Assembly: GCA_018268605.1 (NCBI GenBank)
Contig: JAFDWG010000324.1
Span: forward strand, 1-35,382
DNA: 35,382 nucleotides
Reading direction: 5' to 3'
Source of the DNA: Actinomycetota bacterium
GTDB lineage: Bacteria; Actinomycetota; Thermoleophilia; Solirubrobacterales; 70-9
The position numbers and the translations under genes are program-made. Every line of letters starts with the position of its first letter. The stretch's first letter is position 1. Under the pieces are notes generated by a model, which ran no database searches, was not told where the DNA came from, and saw nothing but the letters and a program-made list of their open reading frames with translations. Shown here piece after piece: positions 13,627 through 22,842 of the stretch.

Positions 13627-13640
13627 TAATCTTGTACAAT
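13627..13640 (+). promoter_or_regulatory. Promoter abutting the helicase start (leaderless mRNA likely)
   Basis: TAATCT (13627-13632) and TACAAT (13635-13640) are -10-like hexamers immediately before and overlapping the ATG at 13639. Predicted starts fall at about 13639 or 13647, that is on the first ATG or beside the third codon, ATG 13645. No Shine-Dalgarno sequence precedes the ATG. TTGTACAA (13632-13639) is also a perfect palindrome and could be an operator, perhaps for the HTH of the same protein. Confidence 0.45.
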
Positions 13641-15696
13641 GTTGATGGTGGTTGATCTAGGAGAAGATTACCTGCGCGTCAGCGACGCAGCTGAGTACGT
13701 CGGCGTTTCAGCGCAGACGATGCGGAGGTGGGAAAAGCAGGGGCGGATCGAGGCGGTCAGGCATCCGAGCAATCGCTATCGCTACTACCGCCGGGCCGAC
13801 CTTGAGCCCTTCCGGCTCGAATACCAGCGGGCCGCGGCCGGCACTTCTGATCCTGGACGCCTCTTCCAGACGGCAAACGCAAACGTCGAGGCGAACGATC
13901 TGCTCCGCGAGCCCCAGCGGGGCGCGCACCGCGCGGTACGCGAGCACTTCGAATCGGAGGATGCGCCTGCGATCCTCCAGATCCCTGTCGGCTGTGGGAA
14001 GACCGGCATCATGGCGACGCTGCCGTTCGGGATCTCCAGCAGCCGCGTCCTGGTCGTTACGCCCAATCTGACGATCCGGAAAGGGGTTGCGACCGCCCTG
14101 GATATCGCGAGCCGCGAGTGCTTTTGGGCGAAGACCCGCGTACTCGATGACTTCCAGAACGGCCCGTACTTCGCCGTCCTCGACAGCCAGGACGCGAATA
14201 TCCACGACTGCACCGAGAGCCACTTCGTCGTCACCAATATCCAACAGTTGGTCAGCTCGGCCGATCGCTGGCTGCCGCAGTTCCCGCCAAATTTCTTCGA
14301 TCTGATCCTGGTCGATGAGGGCCATCACGCGGCGGCGGCGAGCTGGCAAAAGGTCTTCCGGCGCTTTCCCGACGCCAAGGTCGTCAGCTTGACGGCTACG
14401 CCGTTTCGCGCTGACGAACTTCCGCTTGAAGGCGACGTTATCTACCGGTACCCCTTTGCCCGGGCCATGATGAACGGGTTCATCAAGCAGATCCGAACCC
14501 GAAGCGTGGCTCCTTCAGAGCTGACCTTCACCTTCGAGGGCGACACCAGCGAGCACACGTTGGAGGAAGTCCTCGAACTACGGGAAGAGCAATGGTTCCG
14601 CCGCGGCGTGGCCCTATCGCCCGAGTGCAACCGGCACATCGCCGAGGCGAGCATCCAGACCTGCAATGCGTTGCGGGCGGAGACCGGCATTCCGCACCAG
14701 GTGATCGCCGCGGCGTGCTCAGTCGACCACGCGCGCCAGGTGAGCGCGATCTACGGGGAATGCGGTTATCGGGCGGCCGAGATCCACAACGAGATGAGCG
14801 AAGAAGAACGCGAAGCCGTTCTCGATCGCCTGCAGACGAATCAGCTGGACTGCATCGTGCAGGTTCAGATGCTAGGTGAGGGCTTCGACCATCCGCGCCT
14901 GAGCGTCGCCGCCGTTTTCCGCCCGTACCGCAGCCTCGCGCCATACATCCAGTTCCTCGGGCGGGTCATGCGGGTCGTCGTCCAGAACGAGCCTGACCAC
15001 CCGGACAACGTCGGGTACGTCGTCTCTCACGTCGGGCTCAACAACGAGGAGCGGTGGGACGAGTTCCGGGAGCTGGACCTCGAGGATCAGCGCCTGATTC
15101 ACGACTGGCTCGCCGCGGAGCCAGGCGAGGATGAGCCGCAGGGCGGCGTTGGAGAGCCTCGGCGCTTCGACACGATCAGTCTGGTCGACAGCGAGCTCGT
15201 GAGTCATTTTGTCGACCGGGCGTTTCTCGACCCCGAGGACGATCGCGTCCTGGACGAGCTGCTCTCGAAAGAAGTTGCCCCCGGTGTGGTGCTCAGGGAT
15301 CTTGTCGACAAGGAGAGACTCCGCGACCAGCTGCGGCAGAAACTCGCCGCCGAGCAGGACTTGCCGGCGCCGATACCCGTCACCCCTCAACGCCGGCGCC
15401 AGGCAGCGCGAAGCCGTCTGAGCCAGCGGACGGGATCGGTAGTGGCCCGCATCCTCAAAGACCTCGGACTGTCGCGTCCAGGGCGCGACGTCGCCAAGGC
15501 GCTCGGTGGTCTCCCGGCTCCCAACGTGCAGCGGGTGACCGTGCTCGTCAACCAGGAGATCAACAAATCGCTCGGGGTGCCGTCTAAATCCCGCAAGAGG
15601 CTGTCGGCTGATCAAGCCGAGACGGCGTTGCATTCGCTCGACGAAATCGGAGACCGCGTACGGGATCGGTTGCGCGGGGAATTGGGAGGCGGGTAG
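13639..15696 (+). CDS. SF2 helicase with N-terminal MerR-type HTH
   Basis: A 685-residue protein. Residues 10-55 are a MerR/HTH_17-type DNA-binding unit (LRVSDAAEYVGVSAQTMRRW, then NRYRYYRRADLEPF). An SF2 DEAD/DEAH helicase follows, of the RadD/type I-restriction-like group: Walker A VGCGKTG (117-123), DEGH box (226-229), motif III SLTATPFR (250-257), motif V LGEGFDHPRL (412-421) and motif VI QFLGRVMRV (438-446). The last 180 residues are charged and helical, with no recognised nuclease. The ATP-driven translocation of nucleic acid is well supported; the role is not. It overlaps the downstream 76-aa gene by one base, so the two act together. Joining a specific-type HTH to such a helicase suggests sequence-directed loading or autoregulation. 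Confidence 0.88.
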   Translation: MLMVVDLGEDYLRVSDAAEYVGVSAQTMRRWEKQGRIEAVRHPSNRYRYYRRADLEPFRLEYQRAAAGTSDPGRLFQTANANVEANDLLREPQRGAHRAVREHFESEDAPAILQIPVGCGKTGIMATLPFGISSSRVLVVTPNLTIRKGVATALDIASRECFWAKTRVLDDFQNGPYFAVLDSQDANIHDCTESHFVVTNIQQLVSSADRWLPQFPPNFFDLILVDEGHHAAAASWQKVFRRFPDAKVVSLTATPFRADELPLEGDVIYRYPFARAMMNGFIKQIRTRSVAPSELTFTFEGDTSEHTLEEVLELREEQWFRRGVALSPECNRHIAEASIQTCNALRAETGIPHQVIAAACSVDHARQVSAIYGECGYRAAEIHNEMSEEEREAVLDRLQTNQLDCIVQVQMLGEGFDHPRLSVAAVFRPYRSLAPYIQFLGRVMRVVVQNEPDHPDNVGYVVSHVGLNNEERWDEFRELDLEDQRLIHDWLAAEPGEDEPQGGVGEPRRFDTISLVDSELVSHFVDRAFLDPEDDRVLDELLSKEVAPGVVLRDLVDKERLRDQLRQKLAAEQDLPAPIPVTPQRRRQAARSRLSQRTGSVVARILKDLGLSRPGRDVAKALGGLPAPNVQRVTVLVNQEINKSLGVPSKSRKRLSADQAETALHSLDEIGDRVRDRLRGELGGG

Positions 15697-15926
15697 TGGC
15701 AAAGATCAAGCAGGTCCTCAACTCGGTCACCGTCGAGGAAGCGAAGAGGAAGCGGATTTGTCACCGCAATCGCAAAAAGCACGCGATCTCCGGTGGGGAA
15801 CGCTGCCTGGTCGTGCGAGATCCCGCCAGCGGCGGGAAGAGGAACTACTGTGTCGAGTGCGGGAACGAAATCCTGGATGTCGCGGCTGACGACCTTCATA
15901 TGCTTCGCACGGATCTCAACGCCTAG
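15696..15926 (+). CDS. Small zinc-finger-like partner of the helicase
   Basis: A 76-residue protein starting at GTG 15696, which shares its first base with the helicase stop; GGGAGG lies just upstream. Residues 22-60 have Cys22-His23, Cys37 and a CVECGNEIL knuckle, giving a C/H...C...CxxC arrangement with a basic stretch between, as in compact PARP-like or zinc-ribbon fingers (a 'CxxNRKKHxIxxGExxL' pattern). It probably binds nucleic acid or docks on the helicase. No close family can be named. The stop/start overlap shows translational coupling. Confidence 0.75.
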   Translation: MAKIKQVLNSVTVEEAKRKRICHRNRKKHAISGGERCLVVRDPASGGKRNYCVECGNEILDVAADDLHMLRTDLNA

Positions 15927-15940
15927 GACGATCTGTGACG

Positions 15941-15962
15941 GACCGTTCCGACTGGTTCGGTC
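15941..15962. other. Imperfect palindrome after the helicase operon
   Basis: GACCG (15941-15945) and CGGTC (15958-15962) are arms of an imperfect dyad with an inner CC/GG pair. It lies 15 bases after the stop of the zinc-protein gene and about 60 bases before the next promoter. A weak terminator or an operator for the following operon are both possible. Confidence 0.35.
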
Positions 15963-16019
15963 GCCTCAAGGTCCCGCCTCGAACTGTGTTCGGCCGATCG
16001 ATATGTCGCCTTGATCGGC

Positions 16020-16048
16020 TTGGCCATGACCGACCAGCCGGCTAGATT
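16020..16048 (+). promoter_or_regulatory. Promoter of the four-gene ImmA-macro operon
   Basis: TTGGCC (16020-16025), a 17-base spacer and TAGATT (16043-16048) form a reasonable sigma-70-type promoter. The expected start at about 16055 gives a leader of only about five bases before ATG 16060, which has no ribosome binding site, so near-leaderless translation is expected. Confidence 0.5.
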
Positions 16049-16059
16049 CGACCGTATCA

Positions 16060-17424
16060 ATGGGTGACTACTGGACGAACGAATCCGTACTCGCTTTCGC
16101 CGGGTCGCGAGATCCGCTCGAGGCGGTCGAAGAAGCGGCAAGAACGGCCGTTTTCGAGGCCGTTGAGGCAGGTTGGAAAGGCCCTCCCTTCGACCCCTTC
16201 GAGCTCGCCCGTCTACGCGATGTCGAGGTCATTCCTCGCAACGAGCTCCGGGAAGCTCGGACGGTCCCGGCCGACGGCGGTGTCGCGATCGAATACAACC
16301 CCACGCGACCTCGCGACAGGGTGCGTTTCTCGATCGCCCACGAGATCGCCCACACCTTGTTCGGCGACGTCACCCGCGAACCCCGCTATCGACACAACCC
16401 CTCCGCCGGCCCTACCGACGGCTGGCAGCTCGAGATGCTCTGCAACGTCGCTGCCGCGGAGATCCTCATGCCCACCGAAGTCCTCGGCGAGCACGCCCGG
16501 AAACCGATGCGCATCGAGGAGCTAATGGCTCTACGTGCGACCTTCGGTGTTTCCACCGAGGCCCTCCTCCGCCGTGCCACCAAGCTGGCTAACTACCCGG
16601 TGGCAATGTTCGCGGCCGCGCGGACGCACCCGGACGCACTCGACTCGAGTTTCCGCATCGATTACACCGTCCCCTCCCTCGCCTGGGGACCGAAGATCCG
16701 TCGCGGGACCGAGCTTCCGGGCGAATCGGTACTGGCGGCGTGTACGGCCGTCGGCTTCACGGCCCGGGGCGAGGAAGACTGGCCCGACTCGCCGCGCGGT
16801 CTCTCGGTGCAGGCCGTCGGTACCCCGCCCTATCCGGGTCAGAGACTCCCACGAGTCCTCGGCTGGCTCAGGCCGAAGGGAGTGTCCCGGGTCAAGCGCA
16901 TCCAGATCGATGAACGCCACGGTGATGCGACGAGACCTCACGGCAGCGGCGAGCGGATGATCGTCCACCTCGTCAATGACCGGACCGCGAACTGGGGTGG
17001 CCAGTTCGCCCGTGCCCTGAGCCAGAGACACCCCCAGAGCCAAGACGATTTCCGCTCCTGGGTCGATGAAGATTCAGCTCGCCTCCATCTCGGTGCGACC
17101 CGAATAGTCAGGATGGGCGGCGGCCTTTCGGTGGCCAGCGTGGTGGCCCAGAAAGGCTACGGCCCCTCGAAGAAAGCCCGAATCCGCTACAGCGCGCTGC
17201 GTGACGCGCTGTCGGCAGTCGCCAGCACAGCCGCGGAAACGGGGGCGAGCCTTCACATGCCCCGCATTGGTGCGGGGCAGGCGGGCGGGCGGTGGCCCCT
17301 CGTCCGCGAGATCATCGAGGAGACCGTCATACGGGCAGGCGTCCCGGTCACGGTGTACGTGCCACCGAGCCAGGAGATCGCCGACGATCCGGAGCCCTAC
17401 ACCGAGCTCCGACTGAACGTGTAG
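16060..17424 (+). CDS. ImmA/IrrE-type metallopeptidase fused to a macro domain
   Basis: A 454-residue two-part protein, first gene of a four-gene operon. Residues about 45-260 are an ImmA/IrrE (M78-like) zinc peptidase: the helix SIAHEIAHTLFGD gives His94, Glu95 and His98, and AAAEILMP gives the third ligand Glu134; the C-terminal extension with SLAWGPKIRRGTELP and GTPPYPGQRLPRVLG is usual for larger members. Residues about 299-436 are macro-domain-like: MIVHLVNDRTANWGGQFARAL has the ADP-ribose loop Asn and Gly-Gly, and PRIGAGQAGGRWPLVREII is the second ligand loop. Macro domains bind or remove ADP-ribose; ImmA-type proteases cleave repressors. The joint occurrence suggests a protease gated by ADP-ribose or NAD-derived ligands, or an antitoxin-like hydrolase. 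Inference only. Confidence 0.82.
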   Translation: MGDYWTNESVLAFAGSRDPLEAVEEAARTAVFEAVEAGWKGPPFDPFELARLRDVEVIPRNELREARTVPADGGVAIEYNPTRPRDRVRFSIAHEIAHTLFGDVTREPRYRHNPSAGPTDGWQLEMLCNVAAAEILMPTEVLGEHARKPMRIEELMALRATFGVSTEALLRRATKLANYPVAMFAAARTHPDALDSSFRIDYTVPSLAWGPKIRRGTELPGESVLAACTAVGFTARGEEDWPDSPRGLSVQAVGTPPYPGQRLPRVLGWLRPKGVSRVKRIQIDERHGDATRPHGSGERMIVHLVNDRTANWGGQFARALSQRHPQSQDDFRSWVDEDSARLHLGATRIVRMGGGLSVASVVAQKGYGPSKKARIRYSALRDALSAVASTAAETGASLHMPRIGAGQAGGRWPLVREIIEETVIRAGVPVTVYVPPSQEIADDPEPYTELRLNV

Positions 17425-17430
17425 ATCCTG

Positions 17431-19038
17431 ATGTCCGGCGTCGTGGTCGTCCTCTCAGGTCCGGTGTCCTCAGGGAAGACCACGCTCGCCCGGCGTCTCG
17501 CGGAGAGATTCGGCGCCAGGCATCTAAAGACGAGCACGCTCCTCGAAGCGATCTCCGAAGGGAAAGTTAAGCGCGAGCGGTGGGCGATGCAGAAACTCGG
17601 CTCGAGGCTCGATCGGGAGACGGATGGCGCCTGGATAGCCGAGGGCTTCGCGCAAGGAATCGAAGAGATGCCCTCCGACGCGGTGATCGTGATCGACGCA
17701 GTACGCACGCTCGAGCAGATCGAGGGCCTTCGCAGTGGTCTTTCCCGCGCAGTGGTTCATGTTCATCTGACGGCACCCCTGGCGGCACTGGAACGACGCT
17801 ACGCCCGAAGGCCTAAGTCTCGTTTCGCGGAGCGCGCAAGTTACGCCGAGGTCCTCAAGGACAGAACGGAGAAGCGCGTGCCGCTGCTGGCGGACGACGC
17901 CGACGTGGTCATCGACACCGGCAGGAGCACGCGTCCCGACGTCGCCGTCAGGGCGGCCAGCTATCTGGGGCTCAATGCCCGCGATCCAGGGGCGCTCGTG
18001 GACGTGATCGTCGGCGGGCAGTACGGAAGCGAGGGCAAGGGCAACATCGCCTTTGCGATCGGGCCGGAGTACGACCTTCTCTGTCGCGTCGGCGGCCCCA
18101 ACGCCGGTCACAAGGTGCCGCTGGACATGACCCTGACCCACCGGCTCCTGCCCTCCGCCACGCGCTCCGGCGAAGCGCCGATCGTGATCGGACCCGGAGC
18201 AGTCCTCGACATCGATGTCCTTTTCAATGAGATCGCCGAATCCGAGGTCGAGTACGGACGTCTTCACATCGATCCACAGGCGATGATCATCAACGCCTCC
18301 GACATCGAGGCCGAGGGCGGTCTCATGAACACCATCGGCTCCACCGGGAAGGGCGTCGGCGTCGCCACCGCCCGGCGTATCACCGAAAGGGACAAGCCGG
18401 CAGAACTCGCGCGAGACGTAAAAGCGCTGGAGCCGTTCATCGCTCCGACCGGCGAGATACTCGCTGACGCCTATTCGAGGGGATCGAGGATCCTCCTCGA
18501 GGGGACCCAGGGCTCAGGACTGAGTCTTTACCACGGCCACTACCCACACGTGACTTCGCGCGACACCACCGCGGCCGGATGCCTGGCGGAGATGGGCATC
18601 TCGCCCTCGCGGGTTCGCCGGGTGATCATGGTGTGCCGGACCTATCCAATCCGTGTCCAGAGCCCGTCCGGCAAAGGGAAAACCTCGGGGCCAATGAGCC
18701 AGCCGACGAACTGGACCGAGATATCACGACGTTCGGGCATTGCGCTGAAGGAGTTCCGCCGGGTCGAGAAAGGCTCGGTATCCAAGAAAAAACGTCGCGT
18801 CGGCGAGTTCGATTGGGACCTCCTCCGGAGGAGCGCCGAGTTGAACGGGGCGACCGACATCGCACTAACCTTCGTCGACTATCTGGACGTGAAGAATCGC
18901 GACGCCCGCCGCTTCGATCAGCTGCAGCCGGAGACGATCCGGTTCATCGAGGAGGTCGAGCGGGTCTCCGGGGCGCCCGTCTCCCTGATCTCGACCAGGT
19001 TCCACCTCCGTAGCGTCATCGACAGACGAGCCTGGTAG
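17431..19038 (+). CDS. P-loop nucleotide kinase fused to a PurZ-like adenylosuccinate synthetase
   Basis: A 535-residue fusion starting 6 bases after the ImmA-macro stop. Residues 1-180 form a P-loop kinase of the NMP/dNMP type (Walker A GPVSSGKTT at 10-18, acidic VIVIDAVRT at about 85). Residues about 190-535 are adenylosuccinate synthetase: GGQYGSEGKG (195-204), GGPNAGHK with the catalytic His at 227, STGKGVGVA, EGTQGSGLS with Gln360, and YPHVTSRDTTAAG. Ser200 replaces the catalytic Asp (Asp13) of PurA, as in phage PurZ, which makes 2-aminoadenylosuccinate from dGMP and aspartate. The domain is also about 90 residues shorter than PurA, again as in PurZ, and ends EFDWDLLRRSAELNG. A dGMP- or dNMP-directed ligase fed by its own kinase is the likely meaning. 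Confidence 0.85.
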   Translation: MSGVVVVLSGPVSSGKTTLARRLAERFGARHLKTSTLLEAISEGKVKRERWAMQKLGSRLDRETDGAWIAEGFAQGIEEMPSDAVIVIDAVRTLEQIEGLRSGLSRAVVHVHLTAPLAALERRYARRPKSRFAERASYAEVLKDRTEKRVPLLADDADVVIDTGRSTRPDVAVRAASYLGLNARDPGALVDVIVGGQYGSEGKGNIAFAIGPEYDLLCRVGGPNAGHKVPLDMTLTHRLLPSATRSGEAPIVIGPGAVLDIDVLFNEIAESEVEYGRLHIDPQAMIINASDIEAEGGLMNTIGSTGKGVGVATARRITERDKPAELARDVKALEPFIAPTGEILADAYSRGSRILLEGTQGSGLSLYHGHYPHVTSRDTTAAGCLAEMGISPSRVRRVIMVCRTYPIRVQSPSGKGKTSGPMSQPTNWTEISRRSGIALKEFRRVEKGSVSKKKRRVGEFDWDLLRRSAELNGATDIALTFVDYLDVKNRDARRFDQLQPETIRFIEEVERVSGAPVSLISTRFHLRSVIDRRAW

Positions 19039-19047
19039 GAAACCGGC

Positions 19048-19713
19048 ATGAAGCCCGAGGAGATCGCCGTGCACTACCCACGCCTGTTCCATATGGCCAA
19101 CCTCAGCTCATGGCCGAGCGTCCGGCGAGACGGCCTCCTCTCGACCCGTTCCCTCGTCGACCTCTATGAAGTCGACGGGGCACTCCGTGAGGAAATCCTC
19201 AGCACCCGTCGCCGCCACTCGATCCCGCTGGAGCACGGCGAGCTCGGCACGGCCGTCGTCCGGGACCAACTGCCTCTTAGGGAGAAGGCCCTCGAGAAGT
19301 GCCTTACAGACATGACGCTCGGCGATTGGCTCGAGACCCTGAACTCCCGGGTCTTCTTCTGGCTCGACGAACCTCACCTCGAGAACCTCCTCGGCGCCAG
19401 GGCTTACAAGGAGGATGCTCACGATGTGATCATCGTCGACACGGCGACGCTCGTTGATCGCGACGGTCCGAAGGTGAGGCTCTCCCCGATCAACTCGGGT
19501 TCGACCCTCTACAACCCCCGCCCCCGCGGCTCCCAGACGTTCCTTTCGATCGAGGACTATCCGTTCGCGGAGCGCCGACGCGCCCGCGGCAAGAACGCGA
19601 TCGTCGAGCTCGCGGTCGAAGGCGGGGTCGAGCGGATTGAGGAGGTGGCCGTGCGTGCCGAGAGACGTCGATGCGGCGGTGTGATCGAGGAGGTGCTGTG
19701 GGAGCGGCCGTGA
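19048..19713 (+). CDS. DUF7002-like protein, possible ADP-ribosyltransferase fold
   Basis: A 221-residue protein, 9 bases after the kinase-synthetase gene. The N terminus LFHMANLSSWPSVRRDGLLS (13-32) resembles the opening 'HxxxxxxxxSIxxxGLL' of Tpt1/KptA and DarT-like ADP-ribosyl transfer enzymes. Further conserved-looking pieces are VRDQLPL, LNSRVFFWLDE (98-108), DVIIVDTATLV, SPINSGSTLY (146-155) and a late Glu in IVELAV (187). This pattern fits the family I know as DUF7002, which has no proven activity. An R/H...S...E transferase triad could be His15 or Arg101, Ser151 and Glu187, but this is a guess. Its place in an operon with a macro domain, the usual antidote or reader of ADP-ribose, supports the idea. 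Confidence 0.7.
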   Translation: MKPEEIAVHYPRLFHMANLSSWPSVRRDGLLSTRSLVDLYEVDGALREEILSTRRRHSIPLEHGELGTAVVRDQLPLREKALEKCLTDMTLGDWLETLNSRVFFWLDEPHLENLLGARAYKEDAHDVIIVDTATLVDRDGPKVRLSPINSGSTLYNPRPRGSQTFLSIEDYPFAERRRARGKNAIVELAVEGGVERIEEVAVRAERRRCGGVIEEVLWERP

Positions 19714-20282
19714 CGATCTCGCTCGAGGGCCTGCCCGGCTCGGGCAAGACGACCACCGCCGAGCTCCTCGCCGGCATGATCGGGGTCGACTTCGCGCACG
19801 AGCGCTCTGCCGACGTCCCCTTTCTGGACGATTTCTACAGAGACGTCGAGCGATATACGTTTGAGACCGAGCTCTGCTTCGTTCTCGTCCATTATCACCA
19901 GTACCGCGACCTGCAGGGATCCACGATCCTCGACTTCTCGCCGGTAAAGGATCTCGTCTTCGCGGACGTGAATCTGGCGGGACGGGAGTACGAGCTCTTC
20001 CGTTCGATCTACGATCACACCTCGGGCTCCTGCCCCCCTCCTGACTTCGCCATCTTCCTGGAGCTTGAGACGAAGCACCTGTTGGAACGCATCGAGCAGC
20101 GTGGTCGGGCCTATGAGGTCGGCTTCGACGGCACCTACCTGGAGGCCGTCGGCGAGGGCTACCTCAGACGATTTGAGGAACTCGGAGATCAGGTCGGAAG
20201 GGTCCGGGTCTTACGGGACGACACCCGAGACGACGTCGCCGATGCTGTCAGAACCGCGCTAGCGGAGCTCGGCGCTCTCTAG
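19710..20282 (+). CDS. Deoxynucleoside-kinase-like P-loop protein
   Basis: A 190-residue protein. GTG 19710 overlaps the preceding stop as GTGA and places the P-loop strand at the N terminus (TISLEGLPGSGKTTTAELL); an upstream GTG at 19698 would add four residues. FLDDFYRDVERYTFETELCF matches the 'FxxDFYxDxxRxxFxxE' motif of dGK/dAK-type deoxynucleoside kinases, and ERIEQRGRAYE is the LID arginine segment. The DRS/DRY motif of the family is replaced by LDFSPVKDLVFA, so the substrate pocket or catalytic base may differ. It probably phosphorylates a deoxypurine nucleoside, which would supply the synthetase encoded two genes upstream. It is the last gene of the operon and is followed by a hairpin. 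Confidence 0.78.
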   Translation: MTISLEGLPGSGKTTTAELLAGMIGVDFAHERSADVPFLDDFYRDVERYTFETELCFVLVHYHQYRDLQGSTILDFSPVKDLVFADVNLAGREYELFRSIYDHTSGSCPPPDFAIFLELETKHLLERIEQRGRAYEVGFDGTYLEAVGEGYLRRFEELGDQVGRVRVLRDDTRDDVADAVRTALAELGAL

Positions 20283-20286
20283 GGCA

Positions 20287-20307
20287 ATCGGGGAATCCGT
20301 ACCCGAT
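20287..20307 (+). terminator. Hairpin after the four-gene operon
   Basis: ATCGGG (20287-20292) and CCCGAT (20302-20307) pair perfectly around a 9-base loop, four bases after the last stop of the operon and before a convergent gene. There is no T-tract. It is a modest terminator candidate. Confidence 0.4.
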
Positions 20308-20348
20308 CAGCGCGCCAGGCTACGGCCCCTTACGTGGGCGATCTTGGA

Positions 20349-21292
20349 TCAGACGTCGGATCGTAAGCCGTGCTTCTCCGCCGCCCACTTCAAGACCTCC
20401 GGCCCGACCGGCAGATCTCTGATCAGCTCCTGCCAGGAGACGGACACAAAGTTCACACCGCCGTCGCCGTAGTCGGCCACCGTCTCCCGAAGGACCACCG
20501 GCCAACCCGGCCAACGCCCAGTGGGACGGAAGTAGGGATTGTCGGCGTCGTAGATCAGACCGAACGCCGCTTCCCGGCCACCGCCGAGAGCGATCGCCGC
20601 GGCGGAATTCCGGACGGCCTGGTAGCCGGCGTGGATCGGGCAGGGGGTCCCCTCCTCCGGCCGGTTGAGACCGAAGATGCGTTCGGCAGCCGTCCAATAC
20701 GCATCCCGGCCGAGTATCCGCTCGCTGCAGTGACCGACGTCGGGTTCCTCGCAACCACAGGCGCTAATGCCGGGCTCAGTCCACTTCGCCTCCATCCAGA
20801 GGACCGACCCGGACGATTCGGCAAAGAAATCGAGCGCCGTCTGCCGCGGCCGCTCGCCCAACGTGTCGGGCTCGAGCTTCTTCTCGAACTGCGTTGTAAA
20901 CGGGGTCCCGGCGCTGGCCGGCATCCATGGCTCCAGGCTGCCGAACAGCCAGTCAAGCGCAGGACGTCGGGCGACGGCCGGGCCCAGGAGCCGAGGGCGA
21001 GGATCTGACTGGAGTTGGCTGAGAGGTGCTCACGATGGAGCTCGGATTCCGGGATCCGATCGGCCAGCACATCCCATCCAGGAGGAAGGGCGCTGGCGAT
21101 GTCGCGCGCCCGCAGTGGATGATCGCCAGCGAGCTGGGGATTGGCGGCGAAGTACCGCCGGTAGCGCTCGTTCTTCGCGCGCCTGTATTCACCGTGTGCC
21201 ACGCCACACTCGGCGGCTATCGCCGTGTTCGTCCAATTCCGGAGGTCTGCCCCGCCGATCGGCACCCGGCAATCTTGCCGCATTGGCATCAC
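20349..21292 (-). pseudogene. Frameshifted PGN_0703-like PD-(D/E)XK endonuclease
   Basis: Two minus-strand frames form one protein of about 314 residues. The first (from ATG 21292) reads through RYRRYFAANPQLAGDHPLRA to ELHREHLSANSSQILALG. At about 20995 the reading must shift: the next frame continues LLGPAVARRPALDWLFGSLEP, then on from 20924 to the stop. One missing base in CTCGGCTCCTGG explains this, since the span is 944 bases. The second part has the nuclease core: Asp in TALDFF, then 12 residues later MEAKW with Glu-x-Lys. Layout and motif context fit the PGN_0703 family of putative restriction endonucleases. It may be a true mutation, a sequencing error or, less likely, programmed frameshifting. 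Confidence 0.65.
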
Positions 21293-21323
21293 CGACAGCG
21301 CTTCGCGTTAGCTTTCACGCGAT

Positions 21324-21710
21324 ATGAAAGCTCCCGACGAAGGCCGCGCGAACGATGAGGTGACGAGGAGCGCGTGGTAGTCAGCTTCTGCCGGTTTCTC
21401 GAAAGAGACGGATGGCAGGTGGAACGGGAGGTCGACTTCTGCGACGGTGGCGGCACGTCGTGGGCCGGAAACGCTCTACGCGGAGGCGAAGGGTCGAACT
21501 GCGGCGATCGGCCTCGATGTGGACACCCTCTATGGACAACTCCTCCGGCGGATGCCGATCGCAGATCAGCCGATCGCCCGCTTCGCATTGGTGGTTCCCA
21601 ACGTCGCCCTTGCGGCCGCGGAGCGCGTTCCGATCAGGGTCAGAGAAATGTTGCGCATCGACATCTATACGGTCGACCAGAGCAACTTGGTCGTCAAGCT
21701 CAATGCCTGA
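21324..21710 (+). pseudogene. PD-(D/E)XK nuclease-like gene with two compensating frameshifts
   Basis: ATG 21324 encodes MKAPDEGRANDEVTRSA and stops at 21378. The protein-like reading continues in another frame from about 21374 (VVSFCRFLERDGWQVEREVD plus FCD) and returns to the first frame near 21447 (VAARRGPETLYAEAKGRTA to the stop at 21710). The two shifts cancel, leaving 387 bases. The middle and last parts give a nuclease-like core, Asp in REVDF and Glu-x-Lys in YAEAKG, with LYGQLLRRM and ARFALVVPN after it. It is divergent from the other broken nuclease, 31 bases away. If only the last frame is used it would be an 87-residue fragment. Confidence 0.5.
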
Positions 21711-21720
21711 CACCGGAGAA

Positions 21721-21740
21721 CGACCGTGTACTCACAGTCG
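21721..21740. other. Small inverted repeat upstream of the AT-hook gene
   Basis: CGACCGTG (21721-21728) and CACAGTCG (21733-21740) are complementary at seven of eight positions around a TACT loop. It lies about 50 bases before the start at 21793 and could be an operator or a leftover terminator. Confidence 0.3.
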
Positions 21741-21792
21741 GTTGTGGAAGACTGCGGGGCTCGATCACCAGTCCTGAATCGAAGGGAGCGGG

Positions 21793-22176
21793 ATGCCGAG
21801 ATCATCGGCGGTACTCGACGACGCACATGACCTGATCAGCAGGCGCCTCAACGAGTTGAACGAGGAGCGACAGCGCCTCGAGCGCGCTCTGGCTGCGCTC
21901 GGCGGGAAAGCGACGAGGCGCGGGCGTGGTAGACCGCGCGGAAGCAAAGCCAAAGCGAGGACGAAATCCACGACCAAAAGCCGCCGCCGTCGGGGTGGCA
22001 GTCGCGCGGATCAGGCGGTCGGCCTGATCGAGAAATCTCCTGGCATCACCGCCTCCGACATCGCGAAGAGGATGAAAATCCAGCCGAACTATCTCTACCG
22101 CGTGCTGGGCGACCTCGAGAAAGAAGGTCGGGTCAAGAAGGACGGGCGCCAGTACCAGCCCGCAGCCGGTTCCTGA
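21793..22176 (+). CDS. Coiled-coil / AT-hook / winged-helix DNA-binding protein
   Basis: A 127-residue basic protein with GGGAG seven bases before the ATG. Residues 8-38 are a leucine-rich helix suited to dimerisation (LNELNEERQRLERALAAL). Residues 42-68 are a lysine/arginine tail with an AT-hook core GRGRPRG (44-50). Residues 72-122 are a winged helix (DQAVGLIEKSPGITASDIAK, then YLYRVLGDLEKEGRV). The combination of dimer helix, minor-groove hook and winged helix recalls nucleoid-associated and silencing proteins of actinobacteria in design, not in sequence. Close relatives occur as chromosomal genes in this class, so it may be a general DNA-binding factor picked up by the element. Confidence 0.75.
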   Translation: MPRSSAVLDDAHDLISRRLNELNEERQRLERALAALGGKATRRGRGRPRGSKAKARTKSTTKSRRRRGGSRADQAVGLIEKSPGITASDIAKRMKIQPNYLYRVLGDLEKEGRVKKDGRQYQPAAGS

Positions 22177-22193
22177 ACGAGCAGACCAGCCCG

Positions 22194-22472
22194 TCAGGTC
22201 AGCCCGAGCCGACGGACCGCCTCGCCGCAATTCGGTCCGGCGAGGACGACGAAGCGCTCGATCGACTCTTCGCCGTCGACCTCCTCCACCCTGGCGACGC
22301 CGTCGCGCTCAAGGACGCGGACGTGGTAGCCGATCGTTGCCAGGGTGGCCGAGCCGTCGGTGTATTCGGAATGGAAGCGCCGCGCCGAGAGCGGCTCACT
22401 CGAGTGCCACAGCGCCTCGATCATCCTCTTACGGATCGGGTGCTCGATGATCCGGCCGACTACATCATCCAC
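22194..22472 (-). CDS. ArsR-like winged-helix regulator
   Basis: A 92-residue protein. GTG 22472 is preferred because GGAGGT lies seven bases upstream and the winged helix starts at once (MDDVVGRIIEHPIRKRMIEA); the frame is open further upstream to 22526. HTH residues include LSARRFHSE and ATIGYHVRVLERDGVARVEE, the typical ArsR/PadR-like 'xxVSYHLxxLxxxGLV' helix and wing. No metal-binding cysteine motif is present apart from one Cys near the end. Such proteins are common in Solirubrobacterales. It is convergent with the AT-hook gene. Confidence 0.8.
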   Translation of the reverse strand: MDDVVGRIIEHPIRKRMIEALWHSSEPLSARRFHSEYTDGSATLATIGYHVRVLERDGVARVEEVDGEESIERFVVLAGPNCGEAVRRLGLT

Positions 22473-22599
22473 TCGGCCACCTCCATGGTCCGAATTCCCC
22501 TGAACGCCGACAGCGTACCCGACCAACGCGCTCTAGGCCAATGCGCTCCCTACCGCTACGCTCTGGTCCGTTCGGTCGGGAGCCGCCACGCTCCCAGAC

Positions 22600-22842
22600 G
22601 TGTCGGGCCCGATCTACGAAGACGCCGAACTTGCCAGCCGGGCCTTCGGGGACCGAATGCGTGAGCTGCGGGCCAGGGAAGGCATCTCCCAGGACGGACT
22701 CGCCCACGCCTCCGGCATCCACTCGACCAGCATCGGTCGGATCGAGCGCGGCGGTCGCGAGCCGCGCCTGACGACGATCCTGCGCCTGGCCCACGGCCTC
22801 GGTGTGGAGCCCGGCGAGCTCGTCGACGGTCTCGATCGCTAA
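22600..22842 (+). CDS. XRE-family regulator
   Basis: An 80-residue single-domain HTH protein from GTG 22600. FGDRMRELRAREGISQDGLA, then ASGIHSTSIGRIERGGREP and LRLAHGLGVEPGELVDG make a full Cro/C1-type domain. No ribosome binding site is evident. XRE repressors are the usual partners of ImmA-type proteases (as ImmR in ICEBs1), so this could be the target of the ImmA-macro protein 5 kb upstream, although the genes are not adjacent. Its stop overlaps the stop of the convergent gene by bases 22839-22842. Confidence 0.85.
   Translation: MSGPIYEDAELASRAFGDRMRELRAREGISQDGLAHASGIHSTSIGRIERGGREPRLTTILRLAHGLGVEPGELVDGLDR

Follow-up and report, generated by a model that had tools for sequence, protein, structure and literature searches.

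A peptidase–macrodomain fusion heads a conserved operon

The DNA analysed here is a stretch of 35,382 nucleotides (the window) from an Actinomycetota bacterium (Thermoleophilia; Solirubrobacterales; 70-9), taken from the forward strand of contig JAFDWG010000324.1 of assembly GCA_018268605.1. At 16060..17424 on its plus strand, an open reading frame (ORF) with an ATG start encodes a 454-amino-acid (aa) protein that joins an M78 peptidase to a macrodomain (M78-macro). This is the first gene of an operon that continues on the same strand with a kinase fused to a PurZ-like adenylosuccinate synthetase (kinase-PurZ, 17431..19038), a DUF7002 protein (19048..19713) and a deoxynucleoside kinase (19710..20282; Pfam dNK, E value 5.7e-24). 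The fusion gene is 6 bases from kinase-PurZ, kinase-PurZ is 9 bases from DUF7002, and the inferred GTG start of the last gene at 19710 overlaps the DUF7002 stop.

We compared five loci that carry the fusion: the window, the genomes G068 and G045, which belong to the window's order, and two viral contigs (3300017645_000121 and 2698536749_000002). In all five, kinase-PurZ and then DUF7002 lie directly downstream of the fusion gene on the same strand. The deoxynucleoside kinase is present in three (window, G068 and G045), whose four-gene order is identical, and the viral contigs carry the first three genes in that order. The flanks are unrelated to one another, with a phage integrase (L012), a serine recombinase (L051) or other genes of a viral-collection contig (L117); three of the five loci adjoin or sit on mobile elements. 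Judged by its sequence, the fusion ORF is a coding frame under purifying selection, because differences from two homologues fall at 26/20/57% and 34/24/65% of codon positions 1/2/3.

The fusion is rare. Full-length copies were found in 3 of 101 genomes of a set of relatives, the window's own included, and in 1 of 396 genomes drawn evenly across the phylum, again the window's own. A pattern scan of the genome collection with the fusion protein returned a single match, the G045 contig (Solirubrobacterales record JAFKLL010000013.1), a count that is no measure of rarity as the patterns came from the variable N terminus. The first scan of the viral collection with fusion patterns gave no matches, and later queries yielded the two M78-macro contigs. 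Among 57 ORFs recovered by motif from 60 viral contigs with a macrodomain of the same type (SCO6735, see below), none had an HExxH motif in frame with it. M78 matches in two further genomes (G010 and G080; L014 and L015) were discarded as fusions: they cover the peptidase part only, with the macrodomain unmatched.

Both halves of the fusion retain active-site residues

Residues 1–182 (16060..16605) comprise a predicted PprI/IrrE/CapP-like M78 peptidase and its helical part. Pfam Peptidase_M78 matches it at 46.6 bits (cut-off 22), the closest PADLOC model is the peptidase CapP (E 2e-19), and PprI is also the best sequence match to the N-terminal part (E 4.7e-6). The first-pass annotation of this DNA had proposed a complete peptidase centre of His94, Glu95, His98 and Glu134, and these residues are indeed found there (HExxH, residues 94–98, 16339–16353; Glu134, 16459–16461), invariant in alignments with three close homologues and four more diverse ones.

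An AlphaFold2 model of the fusion built from 35 sequences is confident (predicted local distance difference test (pLDDT) 86.8, predicted template modelling score (pTM) 0.86). It superposes on PprI 8SLN over 226 residues, spanning fusion residues 11–273 (Z score 15.2, root-mean-square deviation (rmsd) 7.4 Å), and on CapP 7T5T over 234 residues in a range that extends into the macrodomain (Z 15.7, rmsd 5.6 Å); because these deviations are large, the domains appear to be shifted relative to one another. A middle beta domain (residues about 183–275, 16606..16884) is modelled at the position of the PprI GAF-like domain and aligns with it within the PprI superposition, at that same large rmsd. The VIA-align list for the fusion model is dominated by the macrodomain, so the absence of other families there is uninformative.

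PprI and CapP are reported to be activated by single-stranded DNA (ssDNA) (PMC10904395). Arg85 of the PprI ssDNA patch corresponds to Arg87 of the fusion, invariant in all four full-length proteins, and the patch's GAF arginines Arg207 and Arg267 are without placed equivalents. The fusion shares with PprI/IrrE and CapP the HExxH motif, the glutamate and the helical part, and a domain is modelled at the GAF-like place; it differs from them in its added C-terminal macrodomain and in having no DdrO- or CapH-like repressor kept beside its gene across the five loci.

For the macrodomain (residues 279–436, 16894..17367), Pfam Macro reaches only 13 bits (E 0.1), where its cut-off is 22. A profile of nine macrodomains, the window's and eight related ones, matched the Protein Data Bank (PDB) entry of SCO6735, 5E3B, at E 1.1e-70 and BT1257 at 1e-64. 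The modelled domain superposes on BT1257 2FG1 with Z 26.3 (residues 279–435; rmsd 1.5 Å, 155 residues), on SCO6735 5E3B with Z 22.9 (rmsd 1.8 Å, 145 residues), on DarG 5M3E with Z 19.2 and on TARG1 4J5S with Z 18.8. The loops NWGGQFA (311–317) and GAGQAGG (404–410) are present. The initial claim that a macrodomain with these loops shares a chain with the peptidase is therefore borne out by the 5E3B profile match and the 2FG1 superposition; structure prediction had been suggested as the check, with loss of the macro fold as the outcome that would overturn the claim, and the model shows that fold.

SCO6735 is reported to strip thymidine-linked ADP-ribose placed by DarT and also to bind and inhibit DarT; its Asn27 and Gln85 are described as essential, with Gln85 occupying the position of the catalytic lysine of DarG/TARG1 (DarG Lys80) (PMC9411070). 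These two residues correspond to fusion Asn306 and Gln364, invariant in all four full-length proteins and in all 35 rows of a wider alignment. The likeness to SCO6735 and BT1257 (about 40% identity, besides the superpositions and the shared Asn and Gln) is close, but those proteins are single-domain and SCO6735 Val25, a Val or Ile position, is Leu304 in the window protein. Because of this last difference we call the domain SCO6735-like, from its sequence, rather than an SCO6735 orthologue. Separately, Streptomyces phage Annadreamy (L039:3327-4471) carries an SCO6735-like macrodomain gene immediately after a Sir2 gene.

DUF7002 is predicted to adopt a DarT fold

The third gene encodes a Pfam DUF7002 protein that its model and profile comparison point to as a DarT-fold ADP-ribosyltransferase. 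The model (pLDDT 82.9, pTM 0.82) has DarT1 8baq as its top Foldseek match (E 1.8e-4), and the top five rows of its VIA-align list are all DarT (Z 10.1 to 8.0). Comparison of DUF7002 and DarT profiles with hhalign gave a score of 36.6 (E 9.9e-5) for an alignment that spans 164 columns and pairs the catalytic Glu; the maximum from 100 column shuffles was 21.7 and the reversed profile gave 12.5. His15 (19090–19092) and Glu187 (19606–19608) are invariant in 21 of 21 DUF7002 sequences and fit a DarT fold.

The synthetase is PurZ-like and fused to a kinase

The second gene encodes a P-loop kinase (residues 1–185) followed by an adenylosuccinate synthetase domain (residues 190–535), assigned by Pfam and NCBIfam, alignment and tree; a GSEGKG motif is encoded at 18025–18042. 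At the position of the catalytic Asp13 of PurA, Ser is found in 7 of 7 aligned sequences and in all 14 kinase-fused rows, comprising the window and 13 others; the window genome's own PurA (G000:C258, L201) keeps Asp. A broader survey counted 72 Ser to 1 Asp, a ratio biased by the GSE contained in one of the two viral-scan patterns. Only the rows taken from plasmids and genomes, and the host's own PurA, escape this bias; 22 sequences gave no match to the survey's regular expression. Published phage PurZ is reported to have Ser in 147 of 147 members (PMC12884076).

In a midpoint-rooted tree of 39 of the gathered sequences, the only two PurA rows, both of Asp type, separate from the other 37 at 95/97, and the kinase-fused proteins form one clade of 15 rows at 100/100. 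NCBIfam PurZ model NF038379 gives the window protein 190.7 bits, under its cut-off of 300, hence the label PurZ-like. Kinase-PurZ resembles the PurZ/PurZ0 enzymes of phages with Z-containing DNA (Z-DNA phages; Z, 2-aminoadenine) in its Ser for Asp and its separation from PurA, but differs from them in its fused N-terminal kinase, its bacterial operon and its score under the NCBIfam cut-off.

Phage contigs also encode kinase-PurZ. In four (L112, L114, L115 and L118) its neighbour is either a gene for family A DNA polymerase or a DUF1937/NDT-like (deoxyribosyltransferase-like) one, and these contigs are perhaps a further group of Z-DNA phages, for which similar gene neighbours of PurZ have been described (PMC12884076). 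On viral contig L116 (L116:7986-8543), a separate second kinase gene stands immediately upstream of kinase-PurZ.

A candidate DarTG-like module coupled to PurZ chemistry

We tentatively favour, at a little under even confidence, a reading in which M78-macro, as one subunit, would control and reverse the marking by a mobile, DarTG-like module for ADP-ribosylation that is tied to PurZ nucleotide chemistry. DUF7002 would transfer ADP-ribose from nicotinamide adenine dinucleotide (NAD+) onto a nucleobase in ssDNA or in a nucleotide; the macrodomain would take this mark off and may also bind and restrain DUF7002. The PprI/CapP-like half would bind ssDNA arising on infection or damage and, so bound, would cleave a protein, whether DUF7002, M78-macro itself or some repressor not linked to the operon, shifting the balance between placing the mark and removing it. 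The same chemistry would be supplied by kinase-PurZ and the deoxynucleoside kinase with a 2-amino-purine (Z-type) nucleotide made from deoxyguanosine monophosphate (dGMP). Most likely, the fusion acts to remove or control the product or action of DUF7002 with a peptidase half that responds to ssDNA, and the operon probably serves above all in conflicts with phages or competing mobile elements. The first-pass annotation had also raised an ADP-ribosyl hydrolase or antitoxin that self-cleavage would restrain; the hydrolase or antitoxin role gains support from the SCO6735-class macrodomain and the predicted DarT-fold protein encoded two genes downstream.

The nearest described system is DarTG2, which pairs DarT2 with the macrodomain antitoxin DarG; here too a predicted DarT-fold ADP-ribosyltransferase and a TARG1/DarG-like macrodomain share an operon. 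The operon departs from DarTG2 in that its macrodomain shares a chain with a peptidase, it also encodes PurZ and kinases, DUF7002 lies outside Pfam DarT and the DarG Lys80 position is Gln364. We do not file the operon as DarTG because it lacks two defining features, a PF14487 match and that lysine; it is DarTG-like in its parts list, with a peptidase and PurZ-like chemistry in addition.

Several observations weigh against this reading. PF14487, the Pfam DarT family, matches neither the window DUF7002 nor any of nine DUF7002 proteins; the hhalign probability is just 58; and of the five DUF7002 models, two were confident and three poor. Leu304 departs from SCO6735 at the Val25 position. No repressor is conserved beside the fusion gene in the five loci, the XRE protein encoded at 22600–22842 being the only query. 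This protein had been put forward as a peptidase substrate, a proposal that we drop: the conserved operon does not include it, and it does not recur as a partner of the fusion. With it as sole query, tblastn (E limits of 1e-3 or 1e-2) gave no match close to the fusion gene in three of the four remaining loci and, in the fourth, a helix-turn-helix protein that also carries an S24 (LexA/CI-type) domain.

Loci without the fusion count on the same side. Kinase-PurZ adjoins 8 of 10 plasmid DUF7002 matches, and M78-macro is absent from all four of these eight loci that were examined, on Rhizobiales plasmids (L027, L028, L029 and L030), as it is from viral contig L116, which also has the pair. DUF7002 and kinase-PurZ are thus the constant pair, to which at least two alternative sets of genes, M78-macro among them, can be added. 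In the Rhizobiales loci its place is taken by a YfbR-like HD protein and a 455-aa protein, the latter with no Pfam match in the three loci scanned (L027, L028 and L029); for L030 the evidence for both is limited to reading frames. We do not assign the HD protein as DatZ, as its two PDB matches by phmmer, led by Atu1052 (2gz4), did not include it, though the two may be related. One Rhizobiales plasmid copy is flanked by SIR2, DUF87 and AbiE genes.

In 7 of 10 loci with a solo copy of DUF7002 in Actinomycetota, that copy follows dnaE, either immediately or at a distance of one to two genes; these seven are from one actinobacterial family (L214, L215, L216, L218, L219, L221 and L222; dnaE was checked with Pfam in two loci and recognized by a shared N-terminal motif in the other five). 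The solo copies retain His15 and Glu187, and possibly represent a housekeeping DarT-like enzyme. Eight of nine genomes with solo DUF7002 are without a macrodomain of SCO6735 type, so DUF7002 need not be a toxin restrained by one, and the many DUF7002 genes without such a macrodomain weaken a plain toxin–antitoxin pair.

Alternative readings

The solo copies by dnaE also suit a pathway with no toxin at all, in which the kinase, PurZ, the deoxynucleoside kinase and DUF7002 would jointly produce an unusual nucleotide or act on one. An ADP-ribose intermediate would then fall to the macrodomain, and the peptidase part would have a regulatory role. Two of the four operon genes encode nucleotide enzymes, with three such domains altogether; the Rhizobiales versions carry the HD and 455-aa proteins instead of M78-macro; and the phage neighbours of kinase-PurZ match the Z-DNA phage kind. 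We nonetheless consider this pathway unlikely: DUF7002 most resembles DarT, an ADP-ribosyltransferase that modifies macromolecules, the macrodomain class acts on DarT-marked DNA, and a PprI-like peptidase would be unusual in a purely metabolic operon. The integrase, recombinase and viral-collection settings of the loci (L012, L051 and L117) could instead indicate a counter-defence cassette, in which M78-macro would cancel DarT-type marks of the host and, in the manner of ArdC, act on restriction, and PurZ would alter the element's bases so that they evade nucleases. ArdC is described as an ssDNA-binding metalloprotease that overcomes restriction (PMC7213743), and phage PurZ is reported to serve in replacing adenine (PMC8342488). 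Such a cassette would leave the operon's own predicted DarT-fold protein unexplained, and the SIR2 and AbiE genes flanking one plasmid copy suit a defence cassette equally; we regard it as improbable.

That both halves share a single chain with both active sites intact, and that DUF7002 could be a ligand source within the operon, would also fit the ligand-gated protease of the first-pass annotation, switched on when its macrodomain binds an ADP-ribosylated base or ADP-ribose. The domain retains the residues on which hydrolysis by SCO6735 depends, and these would be superfluous in a pure sensor; we think such gating improbable as well. The favoured module could also be extended to a self-marking immunity, an idea to which we give little credence. 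Kinase-PurZ and the deoxynucleoside kinase would place Z in the DNA of the replicon or in a decoy nucleotide, DUF7002 would ADP-ribosylate the exposed bases of Z-free DNA or, in the way that DarT1 acts on guanine, the 2-amino group itself, and ssDNA-activated M78-macro would erase the mark from self or end the response by proteolysis. Were this so, cellular, non-phage Z-type chemistry would be tied to a new DarT-like branch.

A literature search found no case of IrrE and a macrodomain together, none of PurZ with DarT or a macrodomain among the matches listed, none linking adenylosuccinate synthetase to macrodomain, ADP-ribosyltransferase, defence or operon themes, and no mention of DUF7002; nor did it find a description of M78-macro combined with a DarT look-alike and a PurZ-like enzyme. 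The operon links three fields that have so far been separate, namely ssDNA-activated M78 proteases, reversible ADP-ribosylation of nucleic acids and phage Z-base synthesis, and it gives DUF7002 a testable function. If the fusion couples ssDNA sensing to ADP-ribose removal, it would show a possible switch of a DarTG-like system; should a bacterium produce Z nucleotides through this operon, such chemistry would extend beyond phages.

Genes surrounding the operon

Upstream of the fusion gene, a helicase (13639–15696) and a small ORF (15696–15926) were rejected as operon members, since tblastn matched neither of them around the fusion gene of G068 or of G045. The single helicase match in L051 (E 4e-12) lies within a 924-aa frame, beside genes that we take to be type I restriction-like. 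The region 13639–22842, which includes the MerR-helicase, the operon, a REase-ARP protein and the XRE gene, has a G+C content of 63–68%, below that of most of its flanks, and looks like an acquired island. The REase-ARP protein, encoded at 20349–20924 on the minus strand, matches the Pfam family of restriction endonucleases associating with ARP at E 3e-8.
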